From assembly GCF_001007875.1 (NCBI RefSeq), contig NZ_CP011412.1:2604001-2668000 (forward strand): 64,000 nt of DNA, written 5' to 3'. Position numbers and translations under genes: made by a program. Origin of the DNA: Sedimenticola thiotaurini. Its GTDB lineage: Bacteria; Pseudomonadota; Gammaproteobacteria; Chromatiales; Chromatiaceae. Position 1 is the first letter of the stretch, and each line of letters begins with the position of its first letter. Below the pieces are notes generated by a model that worked only from the letters and a program-made list of their open reading frames with translations, was not told the origin of the DNA and ran no database searches. Shown piece by piece: positions 42,410 to 58,341 of the stretch.

Positions 42410-43735
42410 TCATCCCGGTTGGGAAATGGCGTAACGCTTCATCTTCTCCCACAGGTTCTTACGACTGATACCCAAACTCTCTGCCGTTTCCGCAATACGC
42501 CACTCATGATGTTCCAGGGTTTCACGCAGGAGATTTTTCTCATACTCCTCCATCAGGTCTTTCAGCGATGCGTTGCCCCGTGACGCCAGGGGTGCCGCCT
42601 CCGTCGCACCAAACTCCCTGGGACCCATTACCTCCTGGGGCGAAAGGATACAGGCACGCTCCACCGCATGGGCCAGTTCCCGCAAATTACCCGGCCAGGG
42701 CAGGGACTCCAGATAACGTTCGGTCAGGGGCAGAATCAAGCGTCGCTTCTTGTGTTCATGGAAATAGTTTTCAACAACACAGTTGGCCAGCCAGTGGATA
42801 TCCTCCTTGCGCTCCCGCAGTGGCGGGATGTGGACGTGGGCAACGTTGATTCTGAAATAGAGATCCTCGCGGAACTCACCCCGATCCACCATCATTTTCA
42901 AATCCCGGTTGGTGGCATAAACCAGTCGCACATCCACGGGAATGGTATTTTCACTGCCGATCCGTTGCACCACCCGCTCCTGAATGGTACGCAGCAGTTT
43001 CGCCTGCATGCGGGGCGAGGTCTCCCCCACTTCATCCAGAAACAGTACGCCCCCATCGGCCTGTTCAAACACCCCGCGCCGCACCCGACCTGCGCCGGTA
43101 AACGCCCCTTTTTCATGGCCGAACAGCTCCGCTTCCAGCAGATCCTCCGGTAACGCCGCACAGTTGATAGCGATAAAAGGGGTTTCCGTTCCGTTTTTGA
43201 TACGACTGGCGAAATAGCGGGCCGCATACTCCTTGCCGACACCCGATTCGCCGGTAATCAGCAGGTCCACCTGGTGGGCCGCCAGGCGATCCAGGGTCGT
43301 CTGAATCTGTCGCATGGCGGGGGAAACCCCCAGCTCCACGCCACCCCCCTGCATATCATCAAACAGGGCAGCAGCCACCTCCCGCAGCTTGATCAGCAGG
43401 GCGTCCAGGTCGAACGGTTTGGTTATGTAGTCACTGGCGCCCAGCTTCAGCAGCCGGACCGCCTGATCGATGGTGCCGTATCCGGTGATAAAAATGGTGG
43501 GTGGCGGCAGTTTCTGGCGCTCGATCAGGCGATTGTAGAGCTGTTCACCACTCAGATCAGGCAGGCGTATATCACTGATCAGTACCTCGTACTGTCGCTC
43601 TTCCAGAGCCGCCAGCGCCTCTTCCGCCATCGTGAAGCAATCACAGTCAATACCCTCGATTTTGAAACGCTGGCAGAGCGAAGCCCGCATAATCGCATCA
43701 TCTTCAACCAGGCAGAGGCGTGGAGACTGGCTCAT
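42410..43735 (-). CDS. Sigma-54-dependent response regulator (NtrC family) of the molybdoenzyme locus
   Basis: 441 residues. Receiver domain: LCLVEDD acidic pocket, phospho-accepting Asp in LISDIRLPD, Lys in YITKPFD. AAA+ domain: Walker A TGESGVGKE, the sigma-54 loop HEKGAFTGA, Walker B GGVLFLDEVGE. The C-terminal Fis-type HTH is EWRIAETAESLGISRKNLWEKM. ATG 43735 overlaps the stop of the sensor gene by four bases. It is the last gene of the long operon and the likely binder of the palindromes upstream of that operon. This kinase/regulator/binding-protein trio resembles AioXSR and ArxXSR, which control arsenite oxidases. Confidence 0.94.
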   Translation of the reverse strand: MSQSPRLCLVEDDAIMRASLCQRFKIEGIDCDCFTMAEEALAALEERQYEVLISDIRLPDLSGEQLYNRLIERQKLPPPTIFITGYGTIDQAVRLLKLGASDYITKPFDLDALLIKLREVAAALFDDMQGGGVELGVSPAMRQIQTTLDRLAAHQVDLLITGESGVGKEYAARYFASRIKNGTETPFIAINCAALPEDLLEAELFGHEKGAFTGAGRVRRGVFEQADGGVLFLDEVGETSPRMQAKLLRTIQERVVQRIGSENTIPVDVRLVYATNRDLKMMVDRGEFREDLYFRINVAHVHIPPLRERKEDIHWLANCVVENYFHEHKKRRLILPLTERYLESLPWPGNLRELAHAVERACILSPQEVMGPREFGATEAAPLASRGNASLKDLMEEYEKNLLRETLEHHEWRIAETAESLGISRKNLWEKMKRYAISQPG

Positions 43736-45171
43736 TGAAACTCCTTTATCGGCAGCTCTACCGTAAATTGGGTCTTCCCACCCCGGGACTTCACCTCGAT
43801 AACCCCTTCCAGCTGCTGAATCAACTGATAGGTCACCCACAGCCCCAGTCCATTGCCGGTGGTGCTTTCCGAAAATGGTTCAAACAGGCTTTTCATGCGC
43901 TCCCGGGGAATGTTCGGCCCGTTATTCAGCACATATATATAGAGCATGTGGTTACGGCTCTCAACCGAACAGTGCACCACCCCCTCCTCGGGCGACGCCT
44001 GAACCGCGTTGAGTGACAGGTTGAGCAGCACCTGACGGATGGGGGTCGACGGTAGGGATATCTCCTGCTGGATGCCGTTGTACCACTTCAGGTCAACCCG
44101 CTTGCGATTAACGTCCGGCAACAGCAGCATGCGCACATCTTCAATGTCCTTTGGATTGAGGCTGTGACTGCGGGGATTGGCTTCAACCAGCAGAGCGGAG
44201 ATGGTTTCACGTATCTGTTGCAGACCGCGCTCTATGAGTGCAAAGGTTTCCCGTCCCAGATCGTCTGTCTTGCTGAAATGGCGAAACGTATTCAGTGCGT
44301 TCAGCATGCCGCCGAGGGGATTGTTGATTTCATGCGCCACCCCTGCGGAAAGCCGGCCGACAGCAGCCAGCCGTTCCGATGCCAGCATGCCCGCTTCCAG
44401 TTGCTCTTTCTCATCCAGCTCCTTCAGCATCTGCTGAAAGCTGGTTCCCAGCTGTCCGATCTCGTCCTTTCCCTGGCGTAAATCACAGACTATCTCCTCA
44501 CTGTTGCCGCGTCCCACTTTTGACATGCATCTGGCCAGATGCCCAAGGGGCATAACCATCCGGTTGCCCAGATACCAGCCCAGGGGCAGGAGCAGGATGG
44601 TCACCACCAGGGCGGAGAAAACCACCCGCTTGACGATGTCGGTAAATCTCGGCCAGAACAGCGCCCGATCATAACCGATCACCAGGGTGCCGATGGCCAC
44701 ACCATCACTCAACATGGGCAGAATCACGTAGAGCCGCTGGTCATTGGGGTGCTCATAGGGACGCGGGTTCAGATTGCCCGTGAGTCGCAACACCTCCGCT
44801 TCCACCCTGGCCAACTCCTCACCATGTACCCGTAACCGGGTGGTGACAGGGAGTGTCTTGGGTCGGTTGGAAACATAGATCTGACCGTTTTTATCCAGAA
44901 CGATAAGCAGCCGGGTGGAATTATTACCCGTCCAGCCCTCTGCCGCCTGCACCAGTCGATAGGCCCCCCAGAGATCGTCGTGCAACAGGGCGTTGGGCAA
45001 ACTGTTGGACAGTACGCTGCCTATCTCAACGGCATTATTGAACACCTCATTACGCAGATCCTCATAGGCGCGCCAGGTCAGCGCCAGCGTCACCACGCAG
45101 GCGGTAATAAGGATGACCAGCGTGAACATCAACGGGACTTTGATGCGGTAGCTGATATCACCGATCTTCAT
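43732..45171 (-). CDS. Membrane sensor histidine kinase
   Basis: 479 residues. Two membrane helices (VPLMFTLVILITACVVTLAL near 12-31 and VVFSALVVTILLLPLGWYL near 185-203) enclose a periplasmic sensor domain of about 150 residues. A HAMP domain follows (NRMVMPLGHLARCMSKVG), then HisKA with the phospho-His in AGVAHEINNPLGG, then HATPase (LNLSLNAVQAS, NNGPNI, TGNGLGLW). It overlaps both neighbours by four bases, so the binding protein, kinase and regulator are one translationally coupled unit. Confidence 0.94.
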   Translation of the reverse strand: MKIGDISYRIKVPLMFTLVILITACVVTLALTWRAYEDLRNEVFNNAVEIGSVLSNSLPNALLHDDLWGAYRLVQAAEGWTGNNSTRLLIVLDKNGQIYVSNRPKTLPVTTRLRVHGEELARVEAEVLRLTGNLNPRPYEHPNDQRLYVILPMLSDGVAIGTLVIGYDRALFWPRFTDIVKRVVFSALVVTILLLPLGWYLGNRMVMPLGHLARCMSKVGRGNSEEIVCDLRQGKDEIGQLGTSFQQMLKELDEKEQLEAGMLASERLAAVGRLSAGVAHEINNPLGGMLNALNTFRHFSKTDDLGRETFALIERGLQQIRETISALLVEANPRSHSLNPKDIEDVRMLLLPDVNRKRVDLKWYNGIQQEISLPSTPIRQVLLNLSLNAVQASPEEGVVHCSVESRNHMLYIYVLNNGPNIPRERMKSLFEPFSESTTGNGLGLWVTYQLIQQLEGVIEVKSRGGKTQFTVELPIKEFQ

Positions 45172-46052
45172 AAACCGTTATCCAGCAGTTTGACCGACTC
45201 GACAATGCCTTCGTACAACAGATCGTTGCCCTCTATAAAACCATCCAGGTTCATCTGATCCAGCAGCTCCCTTCCTGCAGCAGTGGATGACATATCAAGC
45301 AGGGCTTTCTGCAACGCAATAAATAGCGCCGGGGAGATATCCTGGCGGGTCACCAGTGGCGGAAAACCGAACTGTTCCGATTTCATCACCACCCGCGTGC
45401 CGGCCGTCAGCGTCGGATCGTGTCTGGACAGAGTCTCCCAGACATAGCCGTCCACCGCGCCGCCCTGGGCGATGCCGTCCGACACCGCCTTGACCACATC
45501 CCGATGTGACCAGGCAAAAAAACTCTTGGCAAAAAAACGATGGGGCTCGATGCCCTTTTTAAGCAGCCTGACCTGTGGATAGAGATAGCCGGAGTTGGAA
45601 TCGGGATCGGAGTAGACAAACACTTTGCGTTGCAGATCCTCCACATCCCCGGTGGCTGTATCGGAGGATGGAACGATCAGGTAGGAGCGGTAAAACGGAT
45701 TTCCGTTAAACAGCGGAACCCCGAGCAGTTTCAGCTTTTCCCGGTTCCTTACATACGGATAGCCGCACAACCAGGCCGCATCCAGATCCCCATCCAGCAG
45801 CAGATCTGTCACCTCCTTGTAGGTCTGGCGCTGCACAAACTTGACCGGGGTTTTCAGATGGTGGGCCAGGTACGCCTCCCACCTCTTCAGAAACGAAGTC
45901 TGGTCGGTGAGAATGACCGGCGTCAGGCCGATACGATACCCCTCCTCCCCATCCGCCAGCAGACCCTCTGCCACCAACAGGCCGCTGATCAGCCAGACGC
46001 CGATCAACACTTTTTGCCAGGCAATCATTTTTCGCCGAGTAAAAGACCCCAT
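45168..46052 (-). CDS. PhnD-like periplasmic substrate-binding protein, probable co-sensor
   Basis: 294 residues with an N-terminal signal (KVLIGVWLISGLLVAEGLLA). The mature part has the phosphate/phosphonate-binding fold signatures GLTPVILTDQTS, DGDLDAAWLCGYPYV, VFVYSDPDSNSGYLYP and FAWSHRDVVKAVSDG. No ABC permease or ATPase is nearby; instead it overlaps the sensor kinase gene by four bases. Proteins of this type (AioX, ArxX) bind arsenite and signal through the adjacent kinase, and TtrS has a comparable fold fused to its kinase. The ligand of this one is unknown. Confidence 0.9.
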   Translation of the reverse strand: MGSFTRRKMIAWQKVLIGVWLISGLLVAEGLLADGEEGYRIGLTPVILTDQTSFLKRWEAYLAHHLKTPVKFVQRQTYKEVTDLLLDGDLDAAWLCGYPYVRNREKLKLLGVPLFNGNPFYRSYLIVPSSDTATGDVEDLQRKVFVYSDPDSNSGYLYPQVRLLKKGIEPHRFFAKSFFAWSHRDVVKAVSDGIAQGGAVDGYVWETLSRHDPTLTAGTRVVMKSEQFGFPPLVTRQDISPALFIALQKALLDMSSTAAGRELLDQMNLDGFIEGNDLLYEGIVESVKLLDNGL

Positions 46053-46057
46053 TATTA

Positions 46058-46894
46058 TTATTCTCTGAACGATAAAGTTCTGATCTCTCCAGCCAGGACC
46101 ACTTGACCGGGATCCTCAACATCCAGTCCACCCGCCCTGAAGCGATAAATCAGCTTAACACGAATCCGCCGGCTCGCCCCATGCAGCGAAGTCTCGACCA
46201 CCTTACCCACACCAGGGGGCAAGGTGTTTTCCCGCCAGCCGGCTGTTATCGAATGTAGCCAGCCGAACCGATACTGGCGATCCTCCAGGCGCCTGCCCCG
46301 GCTGTCCAGTTGTTCAACCAACAACCAGACCGAGCGCCCGGTGGTACCGCCGGGCAGGGCGTGTCCCGCTTTATGGCGAATACGGATCAAGGCTGTATCA
46401 CCGCCCGGATCACGCCGGAAAGCGATAGTCAGTGTGGCTATCCCCTGCAGAAAACCGGGCCGGGTCGGTCCCTGGAAATCGTGGCTGAACGACGCATCCG
46501 GCAGATGGCAGGTGAGGCAATCATCGCCCCGCCGGGCCGCCGGTGAGTTGCGGAAACTGCGCAGGGTGATCTCACCGGGAGCGTCATGACAGGGCGCACA
46601 GGCGGCCGGCACCTGCACCCTGGGGTAGGGATGGGCACTCAAACCGTGACAATCGATACAGGTCACACCGGCTGAGCCGGTCGGGGAATGGCAGCGGAGA
46701 CAGCTTTCCGGTGAGCCGTTTTGTCGCCACTCCTCCCGAAACGTGGCGGTTTCCGCAGCGATCGCCATGCGACTTTGCTGAAACTCTGCCTGCTGCCTGG
46801 GATGGCACGCCGCGCAGGCGTTATCCCTATCTGCAGTTGCCCCTACCCCCCCACTGAACAGGGGCAACAGTAACGCTGCAATCCACGCTTTCAT
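46058..46894 (-). CDS. Pentahaem c-type cytochrome
   Basis: 278 residues with a signal peptide (AWIAALLLPLFSGGVGA). Five CxxCH haem sites: CAACH (27), CLRCH (65), CIDCH (79), CAPCH (99) and CLTCH (126). Extra histidines that could be distal ligands lie between them. Residues 150-278 have no haem motif and look like a beta domain (RIRHKAGHALPGGTTGRSVWLLVEQ). The pattern recalls the cytochrome c554 and multihaem electron-carrier families. It overlaps the rhodanese gene by four bases. A periplasmic electron carrier for the molybdoenzyme is the simplest role. Confidence 0.93.
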   Translation of the reverse strand: MKAWIAALLLPLFSGGVGATADRDNACAACHPRQQAEFQQSRMAIAAETATFREEWRQNGSPESCLRCHSPTGSAGVTCIDCHGLSAHPYPRVQVPAACAPCHDAPGEITLRSFRNSPAARRGDDCLTCHLPDASFSHDFQGPTRPGFLQGIATLTIAFRRDPGGDTALIRIRHKAGHALPGGTTGRSVWLLVEQLDSRGRRLEDRQYRFGWLHSITAGWRENTLPPGVGKVVETSLHGASRRIRVKLIYRFRAGGLDVEDPGQVVLAGEIRTLSFRE

Positions 46895-47370
46895 TCAAAC
46901 ACATGGGCCGGCTCGCCCCCTTCACACAGACCCCGTGGTATCAGGAACGGCACACTACCGGGCCGGGTGTAAGAGAACTCCGGCGTCTCCATCTCACCAC
47001 CCGCCGCCAGCCATGCCGCGAGCCCACCCTGCAACACCCGAACCTGATGACCGGCATCGACCAACCGTGTCACCCAGGCGGTAGTCAGGACATGGTCAGC
47101 CCCTTCGGGAGTCAGCAGGACCAATGCACCACCGCTACCATCGGGCAGATAGCCTTTGGGCTCCAGGCCGCCATTCAGTGCACCGGGAATGGTTCCGGCG
47201 TGGTACGCGGCCCGACCCCGCACATCCAGAACCAGGGGCGGTTCAGTGGTATCCAACCATGCAATCAAGGCCTGGGCAGAGACCGTTTCCCACTGGCTGG
47301 AGAGGGCCACCGACCCCATCAGCAGACAGGCGACCAGAAACGGGCCGGTCGGAAACAGCTGCTTTTTCAC
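46891..47370 (-). CDS. Rhodanese-like protein lacking the catalytic cysteine
   Basis: 159 residues. A hydrophobic N-terminal segment (PFLVACLLMGSVALSSQ) can act as a signal or anchor. The rhodanese fold is visible as PPLVLDVRGRAAYHAGTIPGAL and VRVLQGGLAAWLAAGG. Where the active-site loop should carry Cys, the sequence reads LVLLTPEGADH, so sulfur transfer by the usual persulfide is not expected. It may bind without catalysis. Four-base overlaps join it to both neighbours. Confidence 0.85.
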   Translation of the reverse strand: MKKQLFPTGPFLVACLLMGSVALSSQWETVSAQALIAWLDTTEPPLVLDVRGRAAYHAGTIPGALNGGLEPKGYLPDGSGGALVLLTPEGADHVLTTAWVTRLVDAGHQVRVLQGGLAAWLAAGGEMETPEFSYTRPGSVPFLIPRGLCEGGEPAHVFE

Positions 47371-48116
47371 GCTTCACCCACAGGGACTCCCATTACTTCG
47401 GGCACAGCCACTTCCTGGAACGCAGTCGGCGCAGTCAGCGCCTGTCGCAGCAGATCCATACCCGCCTCACGCGCCAGTTGCTGATCAATCACCACGGCCG
47501 TAGCGCCATCCACACAGGCCAGGTTGCGCAGATGGGCCACCTCTTTCGCCCCGCCGGATATCCAGATTGCCAACGGACAGTCGCTGATCTTCTCCAGCAT
47601 CTCCAGCGCCAACCCCTTGCCACGTACCTCCGCCTCCCGGGAGTCGAGCCACAGGGTATCAAAACCGAGATCAATCGCCCGGGTAACCGCCTCCACAAGG
47701 GAGACGTCCCCATCGGTTACCTGCCAGCCCTTTATGCTGGCGGAATCCGGAATATAAAAAGAGAAACCCTCGCCTATTGCCGGACCGGAGAAACGGTAGC
47801 TGATAGCGGGTTTGTACACCGTCAATTGGGGGACCCAGGTCAGCTCAGGCCACTCATCCCGCATCCGTGCCGTCTCGGCCAGGCCCCTGGTACAGACCCA
47901 GAGACAGCTGTCATCTTCCAGCCAGTCACTCTCCTGCTCCGGGTCTCCATCGATCAGCAGCGTATCGCCGACAGGTATCACCCTGCGCTGTTCCGGCCTA
48001 CAGCTGCCCGGAGCAACAACCAGACCATCCGCACCGGCCAGACAGGTGTGCAGCGCTTCCTGCTGCTCCGCTACTGGCGGTTTATACTGCACAAACAGTT
48101 TCAACTCTTCACTCAT
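47367..48116 (-). CDS. Unknown protein of the molybdoenzyme locus
   Basis: 249 residues, no signal peptide or membrane helix. The C-terminal half alternates strands and helices (FDTLWLDSREAEV, CPLAIWISGGAKEVAHLRN, DGATAVVIDQQLARE), as in a TIM-barrel end, and the last part faintly recalls HisA-type phosphate-binding loops. The N-terminal half has no recognised motif. It lies between the second Mrp-like ATPase and the rhodanese gene, overlapping the latter by four bases, so it is surely part of the operon. No function is proposed. Confidence 0.8.
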   Translation of the reverse strand: MSEELKLFVQYKPPVAEQQEALHTCLAGADGLVVAPGSCRPEQRRVIPVGDTLLIDGDPEQESDWLEDDSCLWVCTRGLAETARMRDEWPELTWVPQLTVYKPAISYRFSGPAIGEGFSFYIPDSASIKGWQVTDGDVSLVEAVTRAIDLGFDTLWLDSREAEVRGKGLALEMLEKISDCPLAIWISGGAKEVAHLRNLACVDGATAVVIDQQLAREAGMDLLRQALTAPTAFQEVAVPEVMGVPVGEA

Positions 48117-48128
48117 GTTGTGCCTCTG

Positions 48129-49064
48129 TTAATCGTCCAACAGGTTTTCCCAAAACGCCTCATGCTCTGCCCGGGCTTCCGCATCACTGTCCCGTGCCCG
48201 GAAAATGCGCTCCTTCTCCAGCGCCGCCTCCAGTTCCGCCGCCAGACCAACGAATGCGGCAGCCACCGCCCCTTCCGGCCGGCTCTTCACCAGGGGGGTT
48301 CCGGCATCCGCCAGCAGTTGCCCTTCGGGATCAAGGGGTACGCCCCCAAGCAGGCGCACATGTTTGCGTTGCGCCAGGGTACTCACTGTGCCATCGGGGA
48401 ACAGCGCCTGTTGCTCACCACAACAGGGACAGATGTAACTGGTCATATTTTCCACGATGCCGAATACCGGAATATCCAGGTCGTGGAACATGGCGATTCC
48501 GCGCGCCGCATCCACCACCGAGAGTTTCTGCGGCGTGGTGACCAACACAGCTCCGGTGACCGGTATCTGTTCCAGAATGGTGAGGGGCACATCGCCCGTA
48601 CCCGGTGGCAGATCCACCAGCAATATATCCAGTTCCGGCCAGGCAATATCATGGAACATCTGCAGCAGCGCCTGGGTAACCAGTGGCCCCTTCCAGACCA
48701 GCGCGGCCTCCGGTGGCAGAACATTGCCAACGGATACGGTCCAGACACCGTAGTTGTCCACCGGCAGGGTCCGGCCATCCGCATCGGTTGGGAGTTCCCG
48801 ATCCGTACCCATCATCCGGGTAATCGACGGACCGTAGAGATCCGCATCAAGAATGCCCACCCGCTTGCCGGCCTGGGCCAGGGCACAGGCCAGATTGACC
48901 GTGACCGTGGACTTTCCCACGCCACCCTTGCCACTGGCTACCAGTACGATATTCTCGATGCCCGCTATGGACTGCTGCGGTTCGGCATACCAGGGCTGTG
49001 CTCCGGGGGTCGGCTCTGTGTTGCCCAAAGTGACTGGTATGGGAAATTCCGGGATTTCGCTCAT
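48129..49064 (-). CDS. Mrp/NBP35-family P-loop ATPase, second copy
   Basis: 311 residues. Deviant Walker A ASGKGGVGKST (about residues 43-53), switch I ADLYGPSITRMMG, switch II LLVDLPPGTGDV, and the C-terminal CxxC that binds a bridging 4Fe-4S cluster, here CPCCG. Mrp/NBP35 proteins carry iron-sulfur clusters to apoproteins. It lacks the N-terminal MIP18-like domain that the first copy has. The start overlaps the stop of the first copy by four bases. Confidence 0.92.
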   Translation of the reverse strand: MSEIPEFPIPVTLGNTEPTPGAQPWYAEPQQSIAGIENIVLVASGKGGVGKSTVTVNLACALAQAGKRVGILDADLYGPSITRMMGTDRELPTDADGRTLPVDNYGVWTVSVGNVLPPEAALVWKGPLVTQALLQMFHDIAWPELDILLVDLPPGTGDVPLTILEQIPVTGAVLVTTPQKLSVVDAARGIAMFHDLDIPVFGIVENMTSYICPCCGEQQALFPDGTVSTLAQRKHVRLLGGVPLDPEGQLLADAGTPLVKSRPEGAVAAAFVGLAAELEAALEKERIFRARDSDAEARAEHEAFWENLLDD

Positions 49065-50131
49065 CGGCTCACCTCCTCCTGTTCAGTCAGTTTCAAAGCG
49101 TCCGCAACAGACCGGGCAAGCGTATGGAAATGCAAGCCGTGGCCGGTGGCATCACGGGCCACCGGATGGCCCGTGTCGGAACCCACCGCCACGTCCGGCA
49201 TGAACGGCAGCTGGGCCAGCAGAGGCAGGCCGGTCTGACGGGAAAGTTCGGTCGCTCCACCCGCTCCGAACAGGGCTCCCACATGTCCGCAACTGCGGCA
49301 GCTGACACCGGCCATATTCTCCACCAGGCCGAGACATGGCACCGCCAGGTCCGCAAACATCTCCAGGCCGCGCCGCACATCGTCGATAGCCACCTGGCCC
49401 GGGGATGTGACTGTAACCACGCCGGAGAGGGCCACGCTCTGCGCCACCGCCATATGCACATCGGAAGTACCCGGTGGCAGATCAACCAGCAGCAGATCCA
49501 GTTCTCCCCAGTCGATATCGTAAAACAGCTGTGGCAGTCCCTCGTCGATCAGTGATCCACGCCAGATCAGTGCCTGCTCTTCCGGTAACAGCAGCCCGAG
49601 GGACATCATGCGTACCCCATAGGCTTCCCGGGGCTCGATCCGGTCGCCATCGGCGGTCATCTCGGCACGACCAGTGACCCCCAGCAGGGTGGGGGCGGAC
49701 GGCCCGTAGACATCCGCATCCAGCAGTCCCACAGAGAAGCCCTGTGCAGCCAGTGCTACCGCGATGTTGACCGTCACCGTTGATTTGCCTACCCCGCCCT
49801 TGCCGCTGTGTATGCCCACAACACGCCGGACTCCGGGTAGAGCGGCTCTCTTTGCTATCGACTGGGGACGGGGTTTCACCACCGCACGCTCAACCCCCGG
49901 CAGCGCCTCCACCAGGGGAGTTATTGCCCCAGCCAGTGCCTCCTGCAGCTCGTCGGAGAGATGCTCCGTATCGAGCAGTACCCGCACCGCACCACCGGTG
50001 GCAACCACGTCGTAGACCTGTCCGGCGCTGACTACGTCAGGCCCCTCTTCGGACAGGCTAAGCTGGCTCAATGCAGCCAGTACCTGCTCCTCCAGGCTCT
50101 GCATCGCTTGATATGAACAATTCAGGGACAT
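49061..50131 (-). CDS. Mrp/NBP35-family P-loop ATPase, first copy with MIP18-like N-terminus
   Basis: 356 residues. The first 100 residues form a MIP18/DUF59-like domain (EEQVLAALSQLSLSEEGPDVV), followed by the ATPase: GIHSGKGGVGKST, DADVYGPSAPTLLG, LLLVDLPPGTSDVH and the cluster-binding pair in CRSCG. This is the standard bacterial Mrp (ApbC) form. Being inside a redox operon and next to a second, shorter copy suggests dedicated iron-sulfur maturation for the many clusters encoded here. Confidence 0.92.
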   Translation of the reverse strand: MSLNCSYQAMQSLEEQVLAALSQLSLSEEGPDVVSAGQVYDVVATGGAVRVLLDTEHLSDELQEALAGAITPLVEALPGVERAVVKPRPQSIAKRAALPGVRRVVGIHSGKGGVGKSTVTVNIAVALAAQGFSVGLLDADVYGPSAPTLLGVTGRAEMTADGDRIEPREAYGVRMMSLGLLLPEEQALIWRGSLIDEGLPQLFYDIDWGELDLLLVDLPPGTSDVHMAVAQSVALSGVVTVTSPGQVAIDDVRRGLEMFADLAVPCLGLVENMAGVSCRSCGHVGALFGAGGATELSRQTGLPLLAQLPFMPDVAVGSDTGHPVARDATGHGLHFHTLARSVADALKLTEQEEVSR

Positions 50132-50424
50132 AGAAACTCTTCCTTCAAATAGTGCTGAATAATCAGCGCTTCTTCGGCACTGATGACCTCATCAGCACCC
50201 TGTTCACGACGCATGACCTCCACAATGGCCGGCAGCAGCACCGGAGGGAATTCACACAATCGTTCAACCCGCAGTTCATGACAGCTTGAGCAGCGTGCCT
50301 GGAACAGCTCTTCGGGCGTTCCCGGCTGCCGCCACCAGCCGTAGATCAGCACCACCAGAGCGATCAGCAAGCCTGTCACCAGCCAGCCTGGTCTACCCGG
50401 ACAACATGTCGAGCCACGCTTCAT
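50122..50424 (-). CDS. Small membrane-anchored monohaem cytochrome c
   Basis: About 100 residues. A membrane segment (WLVTGLLIALVVLIYGWW) precedes one haem site, CSSCH at residues 45-49, with Met71 a plausible distal ligand in IVEVMRREQGADEVISAEEA. The final EEALIIQHYLKEEFLCP is like the last helix of small class I cytochromes. ATG 50424 lies inside the end of the upstream ferredoxin gene (32-base overlap); a longer frame upstream is a shadow of that gene. Its own end overlaps the first Mrp gene by 10 bases. Confidence 0.85.
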   Translation of the reverse strand: MKRGSTCCPGRPGWLVTGLLIALVVLIYGWWRQPGTPEELFQARCSSCHELRVERLCEFPPVLLPAIVEVMRREQGADEVISAEEALIIQHYLKEEFLCP

Positions 50425-51544: not shown

Positions 51545-51969
51545 TACACCGCCTCCTCGCTCTCCCTGGAGAGCGACTCGGCGGGAATCTTTCTTCCCAA
51601 CCAGTGGGTGAGTGCTACCGCACTGACCATGTTGGTCGCCAGGGGTACGTTATTGAGATCGCAGACCCGATAAAACGGGGTGATGTCGGGTTCATCAGCT
51701 GCCGGCGTCTCCGGATCGCGAATAAAGTAGACCGCCCGGATGGAGTTGGTGCAGATCAGTCCGCAAAGTTGAATCTCTCCTCCCTTTTTTCCGGAGAAGA
51801 GATGGGTCACTTCCAGCCCCACTTCCCGCTCGATCGCTTCGCCGGTCTCGGAGGTGGCCAGCAGTCGATAACCCTCAAACACCAGACGCTGCTTTTTGAT
51901 CAGTTTGATCAGCTCCGGCAATTTACGCTCATGGGCGATCATAATAATTGTCTGTCCCGCTCCAGCCAT
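51544..51969 (-). CDS. Methylglyoxal-synthase-like domain protein, altered active site
   Basis: 141 residues. The MGS fold is clear: IIMIAHERKL, LLATSETGEAI, HLFSGKKGGEIQLCGLI, YFIRDPETPAADEPD and LNNVPLATNMVSA. Compared with E. coli MgsA, His19 and Asp91 are kept (His13, Asp85) and Asp101 is Asp95, but Asp20 is Glu14, Asp71 is Glu65 and His98 is Asp92. True methylglyoxal synthesis is therefore doubtful; the domain may bind a phosphorylated or oxyanion ligand, as in carbamoyl phosphate synthetase. The stop shares a base with the next start, so it is firmly in the operon. Confidence 0.82.
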   Translation of the reverse strand: MAGAGQTIIMIAHERKLPELIKLIKKQRLVFEGYRLLATSETGEAIEREVGLEVTHLFSGKKGGEIQLCGLICTNSIRAVYFIRDPETPAADEPDITPFYRVCDLNNVPLATNMVSAVALTHWLGRKIPAESLSRESEEAV

Positions 51970-52078: not shown

Positions 52079-53230
52079 TCAGGAAACCGCCGAACAGCAG
52101 CGGTTAAAAACAGGCGCCCCATTACCCGATCCATCCCGCAAACCAAACAGGTTCCGGTACAGCTTCCTATGCCCCGTCGCAAGGGCATCCACCGATACCA
52201 GCGGATCATCCCGGGCATCCAGACTGGCTTTTATATCCGGCAGCCACGCCGGCTGTTTCAGCCAGCGCTCCATGGCGCCATGATCCTGATGGGAGAATGT
52301 CACCCCATGTACGCCATCAATAAAATCGGCGCCCTGCACCCGATCAGATCGCAATACCGGCAATCGCAACGCGGCCGCCAGATCCAGCAGCGGGCTTTTG
52401 CACTGTTTGATATAGGGCATCAGAAGCAGGTCGGCATCACGAAACAGCGACGTCACCTCTTGCGGTGCCACATAGCGGTCGATAAGGGTAAATCGCATGG
52501 CCCGCTTGGCGGCGGCCAACAGCTCTTCCGGCACACCGCGCAGCACTCCCTCGCCCGCCACGATCAGGTGCATATCAGCGGGCCAGTCATTACACGCCAC
52601 CGTGGTCAGCAGTTGGTCGAGACCTTTACGCCGGCAGCCGTGTCCGAAAAACAGCAGACGTCGTTCGCCCGGCTGTTTCTGCGGCGCGGGCGAGCAGGCA
52701 GCAACCCCCGCTGGTTGTATCGCCAGGTAATTGGGGCTGCCGGGTAACAGGGTCACCTGTTCGTGGGGAGTATCCAGTAACTCATCCAGCGCCCAGACCA
52801 GATGTTTATCACGGGCGACCACGCAATCCAGTTTCCGGTACAGCACCCGGTAGGCCGGCATCAGCAACCAGCGCCGTTCGTGGGGAAGAATGTTGTGGGG
52901 CGTATAGATCACTTTGATGCCGCGACGCTGTGCCCAGCGAACGAAATGGATCGCCAGCAAGGGGTTATCCACCCACTGCAGATGGACAACATCGGGGTTT
53001 ACCGCCTGAACCTGCCGCCGCACGCAGCGCCAGCCTCGATAACCACTCTCCAGACAGGCCTGCTTGTGAAACGGCACGGTCCAGCCTTGCAGCTCATCAC
53101 GCCTGCCGGTCAGCAGGTGCACTTCCAAATCTGCCCGGTGCAGTCCATAGGCCAAGGCATGGGTGTAGTGGCTCAGAAAACCGCGGCCTGAAGCCTCTAC
53201 TAGGAGAATGCGCACTGACCGGCCGTTCAC
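52079..53230 (-). CDS. Glycosyltransferase, GT4-like
   Basis: 383 residues with GT-B architecture. The N-terminal domain has ILLVEASGRGFLSHYTHALA and DVVHLQWVDNP; the C-terminal domain has RLLFFGHGCRRKGLDQLL (donor-binding) and LLLMPYIKQCKSPLLDLAAALRLPVL, in place of the common E-x7-E. A role in a sugar-coat or lipid glycan would be usual, and its position between torD and the MGS-like gene is puzzling. Its ATG overlaps the torD stop by four bases. A 109-base gap follows it. Confidence 0.88.
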   Translation of the reverse strand: MNGRSVRILLVEASGRGFLSHYTHALAYGLHRADLEVHLLTGRRDELQGWTVPFHKQACLESGYRGWRCVRRQVQAVNPDVVHLQWVDNPLLAIHFVRWAQRRGIKVIYTPHNILPHERRWLLMPAYRVLYRKLDCVVARDKHLVWALDELLDTPHEQVTLLPGSPNYLAIQPAGVAACSPAPQKQPGERRLLFFGHGCRRKGLDQLLTTVACNDWPADMHLIVAGEGVLRGVPEELLAAAKRAMRFTLIDRYVAPQEVTSLFRDADLLLMPYIKQCKSPLLDLAAALRLPVLRSDRVQGADFIDGVHGVTFSHQDHGAMERWLKQPAWLPDIKASLDARDDPLVSVDALATGHRKLYRNLFGLRDGSGNGAPVFNRCCSAVS

Positions 53231-53979
53231 AGCCCGGATGCCTTGCGGAAGTCCGCGTCATAATCGAGCCGTTTCGGCTCCCGTCGATTCAGCTCCACCA
53301 GTTCCCGCAGGCGACGGCGATCGACCAGCTGTTCCAACTCCAGCCACAACGCCTGTTCCACCATGGTCAGAATCTGCCGGTAGAACGGCTGCAGGGCGGC
53401 ATCGGCGGCACGACGACACCAACCCGGTGCCCACTCCGCCAACAGGTCCAGAAAAAATGTCTCACGTCGCTGCTTGTGCTCATCGGCCAGGGGGATATCT
53501 CCCGTTGATAGCGCAGCCGCTTCCGCTCCAGCCAGATTGGCATAAAAGCCAAGCATGGTGCCGATGTGATCCGGGAACTCGCCGCTGAGGCGGTTTTGAT
53601 AATCCCACCCCGCCTGGCGATAGGCCTCCATCGCCTTGTCTGCCGGTTCCTTGAACAGGCAGCCGGTCTCGGCCACGGATGCGTAAGGGCTGACGCAGCC
53701 CGGTGCAACAAACAGTCCGGTAAACTCCTCCGCCAGCAGCTCGACCAGCTTTTCTGTCGGCGCGTGATAAAACTCCTCATCGAATTTCACCCCGAATTCA
53801 GCCAGGGTGGAACGCAGTTCACCCCGCACCAGACCGAGCAGGGCAGCGTCCGCCTCCGCTTCGATACAGCGCGAGAAAAAACCAAACAGTCCGGCCAGTG
53901 CCTGTACCTCTTCGAGTCTGTTCTGAATAAAAACAGTATCCCCGGTTGCTTCAGATGCCATTGTGGTTGTTGTCTGCAT
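53227..53979 (-). CDS. TorD/DmsD-family chaperone for the molybdoenzyme
   Basis: 250 residues, mostly helical. The family pattern is seen in LAGLFGFFSRCIEAE, LAEEFTGLFVAPG (the Y/F-x-x-L-F motif), VSPYASV and ADEHKQRRETFFLDLLAEWAPGW. Such chaperones bind the Tat signal and help insert the molybdenum cofactor before export. GGAGG just before ATG 53979 makes this the start; an ATG five codons upstream encodes the ribosome-binding site itself. It follows the molybdoenzyme gene directly. Confidence 0.93.
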   Translation of the reverse strand: MQTTTTMASEATGDTVFIQNRLEEVQALAGLFGFFSRCIEAEADAALLGLVRGELRSTLAEFGVKFDEEFYHAPTEKLVELLAEEFTGLFVAPGCVSPYASVAETGCLFKEPADKAMEAYRQAGWDYQNRLSGEFPDHIGTMLGFYANLAGAEAAALSTGDIPLADEHKQRRETFFLDLLAEWAPGWCRRAADAALQPFYRQILTMVEQALWLELEQLVDRRRLRELVELNRREPKRLDYDADFRKASGL

Positions 53980-54038
53980 CTCATCTCCTCCCAATCAAAC
54001 TTTTATCCCCCGGTACCTTGCGATACCGGGGGCAGTAA

Positions 54039-56708
54039 TCAGTGCCCGCCGGTATGGAGCGCTGGTTCAGGAAGATTGGACCAATCCACATCCACCTCTT
54101 GATGCTTGGCCCGATGGATATCACCCGTATAGGCGTAGCGCAGGGTCTCCTCATAATCCTTCATGGAGACCTCCAGGCTCACATTGGTATCACCATACTT
54201 ATCCCCGGGTTCCGCCTTGGATACGGTTACCACGGTGTCGAACCAGCCTTGCGATCCGCCAATGGGATCAACCGCCAGTCGGATAATCGGGTTCGGATGC
54301 ACGCCCTTGTCGTTCCACCAGACATTGTTGGCAATATCGGCGTCACCACCCTGTGCATACCCGGGTGCCTGTTCACGCTGCTTGAGCTGGGCCAGTCGGC
54401 CATAGGCACTGTGGCCGCATGCGGTGGAGATGGCGACCACATCCGGATGAATACCCTCGGTGACATGGGCCCGGGTGACTATATAGCCGACAGCCGATGT
54501 GACACGGATCAGATCACCGTCGGTAATACCCCGTGCCGCGGCAGTTTTGCGATTTATCCACGCCGGGTTTTTATGATAGAGCTCGGCCAGGTATTTCACT
54601 GAGGCGGTCCGGCTCTGTGTATGTACATTCACCTTATAGGTTGTCAGTACCAGTTCATCCGCCTTCTTGTCCCTGGAAGGCAGACGCTTGTAGACCGGCA
54701 ATGGATTGAAGCCGTACTTCCGGAAGCTCTCCTTGTACAGCTCAATACGACGGGATGGCGTGCCGAAGCCCACCATATTTTTGCCATTCACATGAATACC
54801 AATGGCGTGGCCATCTTTTCTGATCGTACCATCACTCTCTATCTCCGCCCCGAACATGTCGGAGGCGGACAGCTCCTTGGTATAGAGACCGTAATCGGGC
54901 TCTACTTCATTGCCATTTTTATCCACGATCTTGGCGGTCTCTTTATCCACCTTGCCATAGATTGGCCAGACGCCTTTCTTCTTCATGTGACTCCAGCCCC
55001 CATCCTCCTTCAGGCCGGGAATATTGTCGAAATGCGCTTTCATCCAATCTTCAACCGTATTGAAGGCGAAGTATTTCTTGATGCCAAGCGAGCCGTCGGC
55101 GTCCACTTTGTGGATTACGTCGATCAGTGTCTGACGGAACTCCTGAGTACCACCCAGCGGTTTGATGACCGGCTGGCGAATCGACAGACATGGATAGAGA
55201 CCACTCGGCATGGACTCGGGGTCATGTCGTTCCAGGTAGGTGACATCGGGAATAATCAGATCTGCCAGTTCCGTACTCTCCGACATATAGGGACTGAACG
55301 AGACATAGAACGGGATCTGTTTTTCGTCACTGAGCATATCCTTCCAGACATGGCTGGAAGGATAGGTGTATACCGGATTGTCGTAATAGGTCATCCAGAC
55401 CGATACCTTCGCCTCCCCCTTTTTGATCATGTAGGGCGCATGGGTCGACACATGATGGGACGCCAACGGGTAGAGTGGCGGCGCCGCGATCACGCTGGGC
55501 GCTTTTCCTTTCGGCGGCACCGGCTCCGGCTGGGGCCAGCCCATGCCCCGCGGCAGGCAGTATCCACCCTTCTTTTCCACATTACCGGTTATCACATTGA
55601 TCATGTGAATAGCCGCCTCCTGGTAAGAGCCCCAGATGTGTTTGCAGGGTCCGCGATAGGAGAAAGTGGTAGCCGGTTTGGTGGTGGCGAACTCCCTGGC
55701 GATACGTCGTATATCCTTGGCCGGCACACCCGACTCCTCGGCGGCGTACTCCGGGGTATAGGGTTTCAGATGATCAATCAGCTGCTCCGCCGTCACGTTG
55801 GTCCAGTCACGAATAAAATCGGCGTCATAGAGCCCCTCATTCATGATCACATGGCAGATCGCCAGTGCGACCACACCGTCTGTTCCGGGATAGGGGAAAT
55901 AGGCCTCATCGGCAAAGCCGGAGGTGTTCGACATGCGCACATCAAAGCTCACCAGCTTGGCCTTGTTGCCCACCACGCCATCCACCAGCCTTTGCGCGTT
56001 GGGATTCATGAAATAGGCGGTTTCCAAGACATTGGAACCGAAGTTGAGAATATACTTGGTATTGGCCCAATCACAGGATTCAATATCCGGCCCCCAGGAG
56101 GGCTCCAATCCCACTTTTTTCGATGACTCACAGATGTTGGTGTGGTTCAGCATGGCATTTGAACCAAGCGCATGCATAAAGCGGCCGACCGCACCACCGG
56201 TACGATCACGTCCCCACTTGAATACCATCTCGTTGAGGATCTCCGGCTTCTGCTCCGCATTGGCACGATCAATCACTTCACGCAGTTTCTTTGCCAGCAG
56301 GGTGGTGGCCTCATCATAGGAGATGCGCTTCCACTTGCCTTCACCCCGTTTGCCGGTACGCAGCAGGGGCGTCATGATCCGATCAGGATCGTATACATGC
56401 AGAAAACCAGAATTCCCCTTGGCACACAGCTTTCCCCGGGTATTCGGATGATCCATGTTGCCTTCAAGCTTTACGATGCGTCCATTCTCCACGTAAGCCA
56501 CACCGCCATCCTCGATGTTGCAGGCCAGGCAGGTATAAGGCACCGCCTCACGCTCCGCACCGGTGGTGGCGGAATAATCCTTTCCACCCAACTCCTGCTC
56601 CATGGCGACCAGACGACTGCTGGACAGACCCAGCGCACCGGCCGCAGCACCTGCCGCACTACCGAACTTCATGAAATCCCGGCGGGTGTATTTAATAGAA
56701 TCGCTCAT
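54039..56708 (-). CDS. Tat-exported molybdopterin oxidoreductase catalytic subunit (Psr/Phs/Ttr-like)
   Basis: 889 residues. The Tat signal has TRRDFMK (8-14) and a long Ala/Gly core. The N-terminal iron-sulfur motif has Cys60, Cys63 and Cys95, but the expected third Cys is Asp67 (CLACNIED). Cys193 in NHTNICESSKK is the likely molybdenum ligand. Later segments include SFDVRMSNTSGFADE, GYCLPRGMGWPQPEP and HPNPIIRLAVDP. With an NrfD subunit and a ferredoxin upstream it forms an A-B-C complex like polysulfide, thiosulfate or tetrathionate reductase. Gene order B-C-A is that of ttrBCA. It could also act on arsenic or selenium oxyanions, or in the oxidative direction. SoeA is less likely because it is cytoplasmic and has no Tat signal. 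Substrate not determined. Confidence 0.9.
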   Translation of the reverse strand: MSDSIKYTRRDFMKFGSAAGAAAGALGLSSSRLVAMEQELGGKDYSATTGAEREAVPYTCLACNIEDGGVAYVENGRIVKLEGNMDHPNTRGKLCAKGNSGFLHVYDPDRIMTPLLRTGKRGEGKWKRISYDEATTLLAKKLREVIDRANAEQKPEILNEMVFKWGRDRTGGAVGRFMHALGSNAMLNHTNICESSKKVGLEPSWGPDIESCDWANTKYILNFGSNVLETAYFMNPNAQRLVDGVVGNKAKLVSFDVRMSNTSGFADEAYFPYPGTDGVVALAICHVIMNEGLYDADFIRDWTNVTAEQLIDHLKPYTPEYAAEESGVPAKDIRRIAREFATTKPATTFSYRGPCKHIWGSYQEAAIHMINVITGNVEKKGGYCLPRGMGWPQPEPVPPKGKAPSVIAAPPLYPLASHHVSTHAPYMIKKGEAKVSVWMTYYDNPVYTYPSSHVWKDMLSDEKQIPFYVSFSPYMSESTELADLIIPDVTYLERHDPESMPSGLYPCLSIRQPVIKPLGGTQEFRQTLIDVIHKVDADGSLGIKKYFAFNTVEDWMKAHFDNIPGLKEDGGWSHMKKKGVWPIYGKVDKETAKIVDKNGNEVEPDYGLYTKELSASDMFGAEIESDGTIRKDGHAIGIHVNGKNMVGFGTPSRRIELYKESFRKYGFNPLPVYKRLPSRDKKADELVLTTYKVNVHTQSRTASVKYLAELYHKNPAWINRKTAAARGITDGDLIRVTSAVGYIVTRAHVTEGIHPDVVAISTACGHSAYGRLAQLKQREQAPGYAQGGDADIANNVWWNDKGVHPNPIIRLAVDPIGGSQGWFDTVVTVSKAEPGDKYGDTNVSLEVSMKDYEETLRYAYTGDIHRAKHQEVDVDWSNLPEPALHTGGH

Positions 56709-56718
56709 CTTTATCTCC

Positions 56719-57606
56719 TCAGAAATTGATCTGGGTAAGCTGTCCGGCATAGATCAGCACTTCCCGGAAACTGAAGGCACCTACCGCGCTCAATACCGCT
56801 GCCAGGGTCAGCACTTTTGGATTACGACCGATTTTCGGCGCGGCAACCAGAACCAGTGGAACCAGAATGCCGATCAGAAAGGTGACTCCCCAATACTTGA
56901 ATCCAAATTGCTGATTAATGATTTCCCAGGCCTGCTGTTTCTCACCGGTACCAAAATTCAGCACCACCCACTCGGCCAGAAACAGCGCAAAGGTCACTGC
57001 CAGAGAGATATAGAGAAAGGCGTGCAGAAACTCAGCCGCCTGCTCATCCAACTGTCCTCGTAAAAAATGGATAACCGCCACTACCGCGGTACCGGAACTC
57101 ATGGAGAGGATCACAAACAGCAGCGGAATCGTCGGATTGCTCCACAGCTCCCGGGTCTGATGAACCATCAGATCAAGGCCGGTGTAGAGCGGCATGGAGA
57201 GCGCCAGCAGAGATCCGATAATACCGGTCCAGCGCATCAGCTTCTGGTTCCCCTTCATGGATCCGTAATAGAACCCGAGAATGCAGAGGCCAAACAGCGG
57301 CAGGAACAGAGACCCCCAGGAGAGTGGAGAGGTCCAGTGGAAATAGAGTATGGGATAAAGAAACCGACTGGGTTGGCCAAGGTCCATGATCAGCAGCGGA
57401 CCACAGATGGCCAGCAGTATCAGTGAGACAAACAGCCCGGTTTTCTGAAAAGGTTCCATGGACTTGGCGATACCACCAAACACGTTGCCAAATACCGCTG
57501 GCGCGGCAGCATAAACAAACGTCATGCTGGCGGCACCGATCAGAAAGAAGTAGATAACGATTTCATGCCCCCAGGGGGCAATGTTGTAACTCATGTACTC
57601 AAACAT
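56719..57606 (-). CDS. NrfD/PsrC-like integral membrane subunit
   Basis: 295 residues with eight or nine membrane helices, beginning APWGHEIVIYFFLIGAASMT, which is a typical NrfD opening, and with LLIMDLGQPSRFLYPILYFH and SPLSWGSLFLPLFGL as conserved loops. NrfD subunits exchange electrons with quinones and lack haem. GGGGG ribosome-binding site upstream. Lies between the ferredoxin and catalytic genes, 12 and 10 bases away. Confidence 0.95.
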   Translation of the reverse strand: MFEYMSYNIAPWGHEIVIYFFLIGAASMTFVYAAAPAVFGNVFGGIAKSMEPFQKTGLFVSLILLAICGPLLIMDLGQPSRFLYPILYFHWTSPLSWGSLFLPLFGLCILGFYYGSMKGNQKLMRWTGIIGSLLALSMPLYTGLDLMVHQTRELWSNPTIPLLFVILSMSSGTAVVAVIHFLRGQLDEQAAEFLHAFLYISLAVTFALFLAEWVVLNFGTGEKQQAWEIINQQFGFKYWGVTFLIGILVPLVLVAAPKIGRNPKVLTLAAVLSAVGAFSFREVLIYAGQLTQINF

Positions 57607-57618
57607 GCTGGTTCCCCC

Positions 57619-58341
57619 TTATAGGACGCCTGAGAAAAACTTGCTGCCCCGGTTATGCTTATAGAAAGCCTCGCTGTCAGAGCGCGCTGCATAGGATTGC
57701 GGAGCAGCGAACACCTGCTCGGTCTGAGCTCGTTCCGGCTTGATGTAATAGACCTGTGGCCGGGTGCCTTTTTCCGGCTTCAGCACAACGGTCTTGTGGC
57801 GGGCAACCAGTTTAGAAACTTCGCTGTCCGGATCATTCAGGTCACCGAAGATGCGGGACCGTCCCAGGCAGGTCTGCACACAGGCGGGAGCCAGACCCTT
57901 TTCCACCCGGTGACTACAGAAAGTGCACTTGTCCACCACGCCACCGATTTTTACCCGGTCACGGTTTTTCGGCAGTACGTGTCGCGCGTTATAGGGACAG
58001 GCGGCGATACAGGTGCGGCAGGCAATACAGCGTTCATAACGCTGCAGCACGAAACCGTCCTCATGCTTGTAGGTTGCCTCGGTCGGACAATTGCGCACAC
58101 AGGGCGGATTGTCACAGTGATTACACAGGCGCGGCATGAAATGACGCTTGGTGTTGGGATAGTGGCCGGTATCTTTGACCTTCACGATAGTCCGCCACAC
58201 ACCCAGCGGCACATCATATTCAGCCTTGTCTGCGCAAACGCAAGCCATGCAGCCGATACAGCGGCGCAGGTCGACGACCATGGCCCAACGTTTCTTACCG
58301 GGCACGCCCAAAGATGGTTCAGCCTGAAGACCAACGGGCAT
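57619..58341 (-). CDS. Four-cluster ferredoxin subunit of the molybdoenzyme (PsrB/TtrB-like)
   Basis: 240 residues, no signal peptide, so it would ride out with the Tat-borne catalytic subunit. Four Cys groups, CIGCMACVC, CNHCDNPPCVRNCP, CIACRTCIAACP and CTFCSHRVEKGLAPACVQTC, bind four 4Fe-4S clusters that wire the active site to the NrfD subunit. ATG 58341 is set by GGAGGA just upstream; a longer frame to 58401 adds an unrelated leader. First gene of the operon, downstream of the candidate sigma-54 promoter. Confidence 0.94.
   Translation of the reverse strand: MPVGLQAEPSLGVPGKKRWAMVVDLRRCIGCMACVCADKAEYDVPLGVWRTIVKVKDTGHYPNTKRHFMPRLCNHCDNPPCVRNCPTEATYKHEDGFVLQRYERCIACRTCIAACPYNARHVLPKNRDRVKIGGVVDKCTFCSHRVEKGLAPACVQTCLGRSRIFGDLNDPDSEVSKLVARHKTVVLKPEKGTRPQVYYIKPERAQTEQVFAAPQSYAARSDSEAFYKHNRGSKFFSGVL

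Follow-up and report, generated by a model that had tools for sequence, protein, structure and literature searches.

Which compound is handled by a molybdoenzyme whose operon carries more helper genes than enzyme genes? The question is raised by a 16-gene operon of Sedimenticola thiotaurini SIP-G1, a sulfur oxidiser from salt marsh (PMC4472907). The operon lies in a 64,000-nucleotide stretch of contig NZ_CP011412.1 (positions 2,604,001–2,668,000), here called the window. It encodes an iron-sulfur subunit (B), a membrane anchor (C), a catalytic subunit (A) and a TorD-family chaperone, then a cassette of accessory proteins, and finally a sensor (X), a kinase (S) and a regulator (R). A sequence-only reading of the window had left the chemistry unfixed among sulfur, arsenic and selenium. 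That reading was too agnostic, as the sensor pocket and its context, the palindromes upstream of B and the linkage to arsenic genes all point to arsenic. We consider it somewhat better than an even chance that the operon represents a third lineage among arsenic-responsive molybdoenzymes, most likely one that oxidises arsenite or thio-arsenic compounds and feeds the quinone pool, with regulation of its own and a dedicated cassette. The lines pointing to arsenic are not all mutually independent, and they do not prove the substrate.

Gene order, carriers and three types of locus

The 16 minus-strand reading frames of the operon (Table 1) belong to the expected families according to Pfam and NCBIfam scans. 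With the preferred starts (ATG 58341 for B, ATG 53979 for TorD, GTG 50379 for the monohaem cytochrome and ATG 43735 for the regulator), nine of the 15 junctions overlap by 1–32 bases, as described earlier, whereas the other six carry gaps of 5–109 bases. Internal promoters that might split the block were sought in silico only, and nothing clear turned up. No copy of the regulator palindrome described below is located inside the operon, sigma-70-like sites show no excess (six found vs 8.8 expected in shuffles), and terminator-like sites on both strands are slightly above expectation (19 vs 13.5, s.d. 3.9). The entire gene order is repeated in three congeners and a second genus, and it is kept with few losses in other loci of Gammaproteobacteria and Alphaproteobacteria. 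Sequence comparison thus confirms the block as one tightly packed unit, far from chance.

A named genome collection was scanned with the catalytic subunit, and 22 loci were obtained. These loci and stretches from other genomes, 26 loci in total (denoted by L numbers), were compared by tblastn at 1e-3. Five of them are cut inside the operon (L014, L023, L025, L028 and L035) and were excluded from the counts of 21 uncut loci; L014 and L035 may derive from a single genome, and the A sequences of L026 and L027 barely differ. The genes for the methylglyoxal-synthase-like (MGS-like) protein, the ferredoxin fusion, the two Mrp ATPases (Mrp1 and Mrp2) and the HisF-like protein are each present in all 21 uncut loci, those for the glycosyltransferase and the monohaem cytochrome in 20 each, that for the rhodanese in 17 and that for the pentahaem cytochrome in 12. 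The B-C-A-TorD core with an unusual accessory set, as proposed from the sequence, is therefore a conserved arrangement across two classes. The carriers include Sedimenticola, Ca. Thiodiazotropha, Allochromatium, Thiocystis, Rhodobacteraceae, Magnetospirillum and Kiloniellaceae. The operon is nevertheless rare. With scoring limited to the top two candidates of each genome, a type I A (>1800 bits) was detected in three of 369 genomes of a class sample, the window's own included, and in one of 398 genomes of a phylum sample, which is the window's own. By protein search, the HisF-like gene is found in six of 93 relatives, including the window's genome.

Three types of locus are distinguished. Type I has the full cassette. 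Type II comprises the system on plasmid pAZKH of Azoarcus KH32C and those of two further genomes (L087 and L084), with A 57–58% identical to that of the window. The Azoarcus run consists of B-C-A-TorD, two small genes, a rhodanese-like gene (hhalign probability 92%), a related ferredoxin gene (99.7%) and a small gene, and its X, S and R genes (XSR) are divergent. The gene set of L087 is the same, and L084 is covered only in part. Type III has an A about 38% identical (37–38% in L057 and L060) and only B, C, A, TorD and divergent XSR genes. One type III paralogue is present in the window's own genome (L060, C1:1414728–1420088), accompanied by divergent genes for a separate AioX-like sensor, a kinase and a regulator. 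Type III enzymes share XSR and the palindromes with the other types, yet they form a separate clade.

It could be asked whether B-C-A, TorD and the regulators are the whole system, with the glycosyltransferase, MGS-like, HisF-like and archease genes as unrelated riders. The two type III loci examined have full XSR and no cassette, the Ca. Thiodiazotropha locus L018 yielded no match for the glycosyltransferase, cytochrome, rhodanese and pentahaem genes, and the archease gene occurs in only ten of the 26 loci (tblastn). This explanation is quite improbable against the five accessory genes kept in every uncut locus of two classes and the related ferredoxin and rhodanese-like genes retained in the type II locus of Azoarcus.

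Some further observations were made on these loci. Of the small genes of pAZKH (L059, 58733–68244), P0017 and P0021 both recur in L087, and P0017 recurs in L084. P0017 was rejected as an MGS homologue. The 232-aa P0018 is not a clear HisF-like homologue (hhalign probability 16 with 19 sequences and 2 with six) and is left as possible. In L013 (G006:C5), a HisF-like fragment of 101 residues (64%) is located away from the operon; the match contains TGA, and it is perhaps a relic of a second copy. In Magnetospirillum sp. 64-120 (L032, 7045–8166), a moaA-like gene is divergent just upstream of B.

Sensor, upstream sites and neighbouring arsenic genes

The module at the end of the operon had been compared with AioXSR and ArxXSR, and the comparison is borne out. 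The best PDB match of X is AioX with 225 bits, vs 121 bits for ArrX. R is of the sigma-54 type as are AioR and ArxR (Pfam), whereas ArrR is of another family according to the available part of PMC5908839. The same part of that paper gives ten ligand-pocket residues of AioX, including Cys106. The window's sensor retains all ten, Cys106 among them, as do 23 of the 24 sensors from the loci, the window's included; the exception, L060, differs at two sites. In a quick tree (like that of A below, a search without bootstrap; three other PhnD rows of the window's genome are among the rows dropped or doubled), X is placed in a 30-row group with an SH-aLRT value of 100, together with all nine AioX and both ArxX rows. 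Twenty-nine plasmid records match the sensor, and Azoarcus and 13 others were examined. All 12 full-length sensors on the 13 other plasmids adjoin aio or arx genes (the Cereibacter locus was called arx by gene order), and the truncated one adjoins copper genes. Judging from its pocket and its relatives, X would bind an arsenic oxyanion. In Paracoccus yeei (L102, 8034–8582), a half-length AioX-like protein, without a kinase-regulator pair, is located in a copper-resistance cluster.

The palindrome GTTAC-N6-GTAAC occurs at five places in the 3.96 Mb genome: three before the operon, and two before the type III paralogue. The reversed-pattern control occurs at two places. In 26 loci (22 of type I, two of type II and two of type III), 45 exact palindromes are found in 15.6 kb before B, vs only two in 541.8 kb elsewhere, and one of these two sits upstream of the archease gene in L085. 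At least one exact palindrome is present in 23 of the 26 loci, and L024, L028 and L036 have none that is exact. The ArxR site quoted in the available part of PMC5908839 starts with gtaac, which agrees with one half of the palindrome. R is presumed to bind to GTTAC-N6-GTAAC. The best sigma-54-like site is located 75–135 nt before B in 18 of 27 loci (L015 and L011 being the same genome). Since the window's site alone is not significant (shuffle p 0.105), only this repeated position counts.

Arsenic genes are present in six of the 33 loci searched (L011, L027, L033, L036, L059 and L085), as arsJ with GAPDH, acr3 with arsC, aioB or an ars operon. The Azoarcus type II system lies beside an ars operon with acr3. 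Among the 22 genomes with acr3 over the cut-off, the gene is on the same contig as A and at most 45 kb from it in ten (8/20 of type I and 2/2 of type II), where 0.64 is expected under uniform placement (P 1.7e-10). For comparison, RtcB and acr3 share a contig in none of five. In three of the nine genomes having arsJ, this gene lies on the same contig, 4–33 kb from A. In L027 (9–308; 498–3993), an aioB-like gene and a second AioX-type sensor trio are located at a distance of a few kb from the type I operon, so that two arsenic-responsive enzymes may be encoded next to each other in a single genome.

The arsenic genes adjoining the operon in several relatives also bear on an enzyme for selenium or antimony oxyanions, sensed via the same Cys-containing pocket. 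Such an enzyme is very improbable, although a thiol-binding pocket could accept antimonite or selenite, and both S. selenatireducens (available part of PMC5052931) and S. thiotaurini (PMC4472907) use selenate. In the same part of PMC5052931, selenate reduction by S. selenatireducens is tied to a serABDC-like cluster that bears a different gene tag.

Catalytic subunit, substrate and accessory proteins

In a quick tree with a few reference enzymes, the A subunits of types I and II come out as sister groups (SH-aLRT 96) within a clade of their own; type III is apart, and two ArxA rows group with PhsA. The catalytic subunit is therefore not inside any well-studied clade sampled. SrrA, TtrA, SrdA, SoeA, AnrA, ArrA and archaeal enzymes are outside this sample. 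The rows of L018 (12 residues extracted) and an unannotated Sulfurovum frame were dropped from the tree, and L034 has no residues at the active-site columns of the alignment. Among the 25 NCBIfam models listed of 26 matched, A passes only a Tat-signal model. Its scores are 23 bits against the AioA model TIGR02693 (cut-off 359), 184.5 against ArrA (cut-off 1600) and 372.9 against PhsA (cut-off 694), the best-scoring enzyme model. For the Ttr models, the operon reaches 102 bits of a cut-off of 1750 (TtrA), 210 of 416 (TtrB) and 56 of 314 (TtrC). Membership in Aio, Arx, Arr, Phs/Psr and Ttr is set aside on account of the model cut-offs and the quick tree. B scores 200.1 bits and just passes the DsrO cut-off of 200. 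As Pfam scans found no dsrMKJ-like genes in the operon, membership in DsrMKJOP is not claimed. A, B and C provide the Mo-bisPGD-type subunit, the polyferredoxin subunit and the NrfD anchor of a complex iron-sulfur molybdoenzyme.

In A, Cys207 stands at the Mo-ligand position and is kept in types I and II. The H-x3-C motif of types I and II is also found in ArxA, ArrA and PhsA. The GR motif is common to types I, II and III, ArxA, ArrA and the Natrinema group, and is absent from PhsA and Thermus PsrA. At the FS0 cluster, the motif is C74-x2-C77-x3-D81, in which Asp replaces the third cluster cysteine. C-x2-C-x3-D is present in all 26 aligned type I and II rows with residues (L010 and L016, both counted, are the same genome), and C-x2-C-x3-C is found instead in type III, ArxA, ArrA, PhsA, PsrA and the Natrinema group. 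From the alignment, Asp81 is probably a ligand of the FS0 cluster.

The best PDB match of A is the thiosulfate/polysulfide reductase of Thermus. Together with the PhsA score of A, the best scores of B (TtrB and DsrO), a rhodanese-like protein within the operon and several carriers that are sulfur bacteria by name, this match would suit an enzyme for thiosulfate, polysulfide, tetrathionate or sulfite, placed under an arsenic-type sensor or a sensor with a changed ligand. We regard such an enzyme as decidedly unlikely, because A is under every sulfur-enzyme cut-off and has the GR motif missing from the PhsA and PsrA rows, the rhodanese is without its active-loop Cys, and the sensor, palindromes and acr3 linkage favour arsenic.

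The second PDB match of A is ArrA. Lys212 of A stands as far from the Mo-ligand Cys as does a Lys that contacts arsenate in ArrA, and the two ArxA rows are without this Lys. These features, with the pocket residues that are kept in ArrX as well, would agree with the same complex working in reverse, as a terminal As(V) reductase for arsenate or thioarsenate fed by quinol. This direction is unlikely, since the sensor is far nearer to AioX than to ArrX, the regulator is of the AioR/ArxR kind, and the 12 full-length plasmid sister sensors accompany aio or arx genes. In addition, S. selenatireducens carries the operon, and the available part of its genome paper reports no arsenate-reductase-like gene and no arsenate respiration (PMC5052931).

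Several points weigh against an arsenic oxidase itself. According to the available part of PMC5908839, ArrX has the same pocket residues and binds arsenate. Sensors of type III enzymes share the pocket too, so the ligand is not settled by the pocket alone. In the sensor tree, whose root is unreliable, seven type I sensors of Alphaproteobacteria branch outside the AioX/ArxX group. Of 13 plasmid loci with aio, arx or related genes, two have an exact palindrome (Sulfuricella arx and Hydrogenophaga aio), two have only a one-mismatch palindrome (two Burkholderiaceae aio loci) and nine have none, which means that AioR sites do not generally have this palindrome. The 45 kb limit used for acr3 was set after the distances had been seen, and uniform placement takes no account of contig breaks and genomic islands. 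The window's own genome has acr3 at a distance of about 866 kb and arsJ at about 216 kb, and nine arsenic-gene tblastn queries found none in the window (ArxA matches, which fall on A, excluded). Linkage to arsenic genes does not show the activity of A. The available part of PMC5052931 does not mention arsenite oxidation for S. selenatireducens, although this species carries the operon. The grouping of ArxA with PhsA, apart from the type I and II clade, and the DsrO score of B are further points of this kind.

If an arsenic-responsive oxidase is nevertheless assumed, the following course can be proposed. Periplasmic arsenite would bind to X via the conserved Cys, and S would relay the signal to R. 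R would then bind to the upstream palindromes and fire the -24/-12 promoter before B. The long transcript would yield A, the anchor C and the helpers; TorD would fold A, and the Tat system would export A with B. At the Cys-ligated Mo centre, A would draw two electrons from the substrate. These electrons might travel via the unusual FS0 cluster, with its probable Asp ligand, and then the clusters in B, reaching either C and quinone or the monohaem and pentahaem cytochromes. The Mrp pair and the polyferredoxin may mature or repair iron-sulfur centres, and the HisF-like, MGS-like, glycosyltransferase and archease proteins may form a side module of the phosphosugar or nucleotide type. More tentatively, the operon may encode an arsenite oxidase of a third class, separate from both Aio and Arx, that needs its own maturation or cofactor pathway owing to an Asp-ligated cluster or a modified cofactor. 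This possible pathway would consist of the paired Mrp ATPases, the polyferredoxin, the HisF-like and MGS-like proteins, the glycosyltransferase and an archease freed from RNA ligation.

Homologues of A with about 30% identity are found in Natrinema and Rhodococcus (L104 and L106), with an Mrp/NBP35 ATPase gene directly after them, which gives outside support for the link between A and Mrp. The Rhodococcus run is preceded by DsrE- and TusA-like genes. In the polyferredoxin fusion of the window, the SRRAFL motif stands in the middle, as if an exported NapG-like ferredoxin were fused behind a cytoplasmic one.

The protein left as unknown by the sequence-only reading (47367–48116) has a recognisable fold. 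In its family, 17 of 19 members match PF00977 (His_biosynth) at E up to 1, with the window's protein at 20.7 bits, below the cut-off of 23.6. The family profile matches a PDB HisF at 3.4e-9. The AlphaFold2 model (pLDDT 85.5) matches HisF/HisA structures at TM of about 0.6, and the 50 Foldseek matches listed are HisF/HisA enzymes or designed barrels, mostly HisF-based. According to the profiles and the model, the protein is a HisA/HisF-like barrel. The rhodanese had been called cysteine-less; the active-loop Cys is indeed absent, but Cys149 near the C-terminus is invariant in all five aligned members. For the MGS-like protein, we take Asp71, His98 and Asp101 (Escherichia coli numbering) to be the catalytic residues of methylglyoxal synthase. 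In 20 members, the position of Asp71 is Glu in 13 and Asp in seven, that of His98 is never His, and that of Asp101 is Arg in three. One NCBIfam model is passed by the window's protein (101.5 of 84 bits) and another is not (102.6 of 146.9). The catalytic residues of a methylglyoxal synthase are thus not kept, and ligand binding seems more likely than methylglyoxal synthesis.

The gene set as first listed missed a linked 17th gene, that of a divergent archease. In seven loci it is upstream of B on the same strand (L012/L022, L020, L024, L025, L033, L085 and L086). It is convergent with the regulator gene in the window and two congeners, and in strain SB48 it lies past the regulator by about 13 kb. 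The Sedimenticola gene is encoded on the opposite strand and therefore falls outside the operon transcript. Where it precedes B, palindromes are located between the two genes in several loci (e.g. L022 and L085), so that the archease gene can be called linked but not a proven part of the operon. The cassette-linked archease scores 62–79 bits (Pfam, over the cut-off), whereas RtcB-linked archeases, present in four of these genomes, score 134–143 bits. RtcB, the partner in an RtcB-archease system, has no match in any of the eight genomes with only the divergent archease, the window's included, some of these being incomplete metagenome-assembled genomes. The archease gene is next to or near arsJ in L011 (1–1986), L033 (2–3592) and G113:C369, with a GAPDH partner in L011 and L033. 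The archease may therefore be part of an arsenate-export neighbourhood and not of the enzyme operon. A 151-aa open reading frame in L023 was rejected as an archease. In Thermomicrobium, an A homologue (L105) lies near an archease-rtcB pair.

Table 1. Positions of the operon genes, the linked archease gene and the upstream sites in the window
Feature	Position	Strand	Evidence
B, ferredoxin-like iron-sulfur subunit (TtrB/DsrO-like)	57619..58341	-	Pfam/NCBIfam scans
C, NrfD/PsrC membrane anchor	56719..57606	-	Pfam; seven hydrophobic segments (simple scan)
A, Mo-bisPGD catalytic subunit, Tat motif TRRDFM	54039..56750	-	Pfam, NCBIfam, alignment, tree
TorD-family chaperone	53227..53979	-	Pfam
GT4-type glycosyltransferase	52079..53230	-	Pfam
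MGS-like protein, altered catalytic positions	51544..51969	-	Pfam, NCBIfam, alignment
Polyferredoxin fusion, Tat-like SRRAFL motif mid-protein	50393..51544	-	
Monohaem cytochrome c, hydrophobic N-terminus, start uncertain	50122..50379	-	
Mrp1, Mrp/NBP35 ATPase with N-terminal FeS-assembly domain	49061..50131	-	Pfam
Mrp2, Mrp/NBP35 ATPase	48129..49064	-	Pfam
HisA/HisF-like barrel protein	47367..48116	-	Profiles, AlphaFold2 model
Rhodanese-like protein, signal-like N-terminus, without active-loop Cys	46891..47370	-	Pfam, alignment
Pentahaem cytochrome c, five CxxCH, signal-like N-terminus	46058..46894	-	
X, PhnD-fold periplasmic sensor, AioX/ArxX type	45168..46052	-	Pocket residues (10/10), tree
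S, sensor histidine kinase with HAMP	43732..45171	-	Pfam
R, sigma-54 response regulator	42410..43735	-	Pfam
Archease, divergent RtcB-less type, convergent with R	41944..42396	+	Pfam
Sigma-54-like promoter TGGTATGGAATCTGCA, 130 nt before B	58456..58471	-	Candidate site
Palindrome GTTAC-N6-GTAAC copy 1, presumed regulator site	58571..58586	.	Pattern match
Palindrome GTTAC-N6-GTAAC copy 2	58660..58675	.	Pattern match
Palindrome GTTAC-N6-GTAAC copy 3	58884..58899	.	Pattern match

Comparison with known systems

The component parts of the operon are of known kinds. Searches of open-licence papers found no description of the clade, the Asp motif or the cassette, nor any described system with this gene set, in agreement with the sequence-only reading. 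The available part of PMC7331816 lists the known Cys-ligated lineages and does not name the type I and II clade among them, and KH32C and Sedimenticola are unmentioned in the available parts of PMC6683785 and PMC6549141. In the latter, arsenite oxidation is credited to two enzymes, Aio and Arx. If an arsenic oxidase is encoded here, part of the arsenic cycle goes unseen in surveys that rely on aioA and arxA, and a third lineage is present in sulfur-oxidising and purple bacteria, including a Ca. Thiodiazotropha symbiont. Such a lineage would further hint that archease, a HisF-like barrel and an MGS-like protein have a part to play around a respiratory metalloenzyme, and the simple palindrome would make the regulon readable.

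The system resembles Arx (arxB'ABCD with arxXSR) in the XSR trio with a sigma-54 regulator, TorD, the NrfD anchor and the iron-sulfur and molybdopterin subunits, and the Sulfuricella arx locus has an exact palindrome. It differs from Arx in the order B-C-A with XSR at the 3' end, an A that does not group with ArxA, an Asp in the third Cys position of FS0, nine extra genes between TorD and XSR, and the archease. Features in common with Aio (aioBA with aioXSR) are the type of sensor, kinase and regulator; one Hydrogenophaga aio locus also has the exact palindrome. Unlike Aio, no Rieske family is among the Pfam matches of the 16 window genes, a membrane anchor is present, and A is far under the AioA cut-off. 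Psr/Phs has the same three-subunit architecture and is the nearest-scoring characterised family for A; however, the identity is about 30%, the GR motif and the Asp at FS0 are missing from the PhsA and PsrA rows, and no XSR or cassette is located in the 7 kb of phs sequence examined. The archease belongs to the same Pfam family as that of the RtcB RNA-ligase system, with the lower score and the RtcB-less genome described above.

The type II system of Azoarcus pAZKH is similar in A (57% identical), the Asp at FS0, XSR, and the ferredoxin and rhodanese-like genes. Unlike the window, its gene run yielded no glycosyltransferase, MGS-like protein, Mrp of this kind or archease, and its XSR genes are divergent. 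A Soe-like candidate for alternative arsenite oxidation in Thioalkalivibrio, described in the available part of PMC6620896, is likewise a proposed route in sulfur bacteria that is neither Aio nor Arx. That enzyme is without a Tat signal and cytoplasmic according to its authors, whereas A of the window has a Tat motif.

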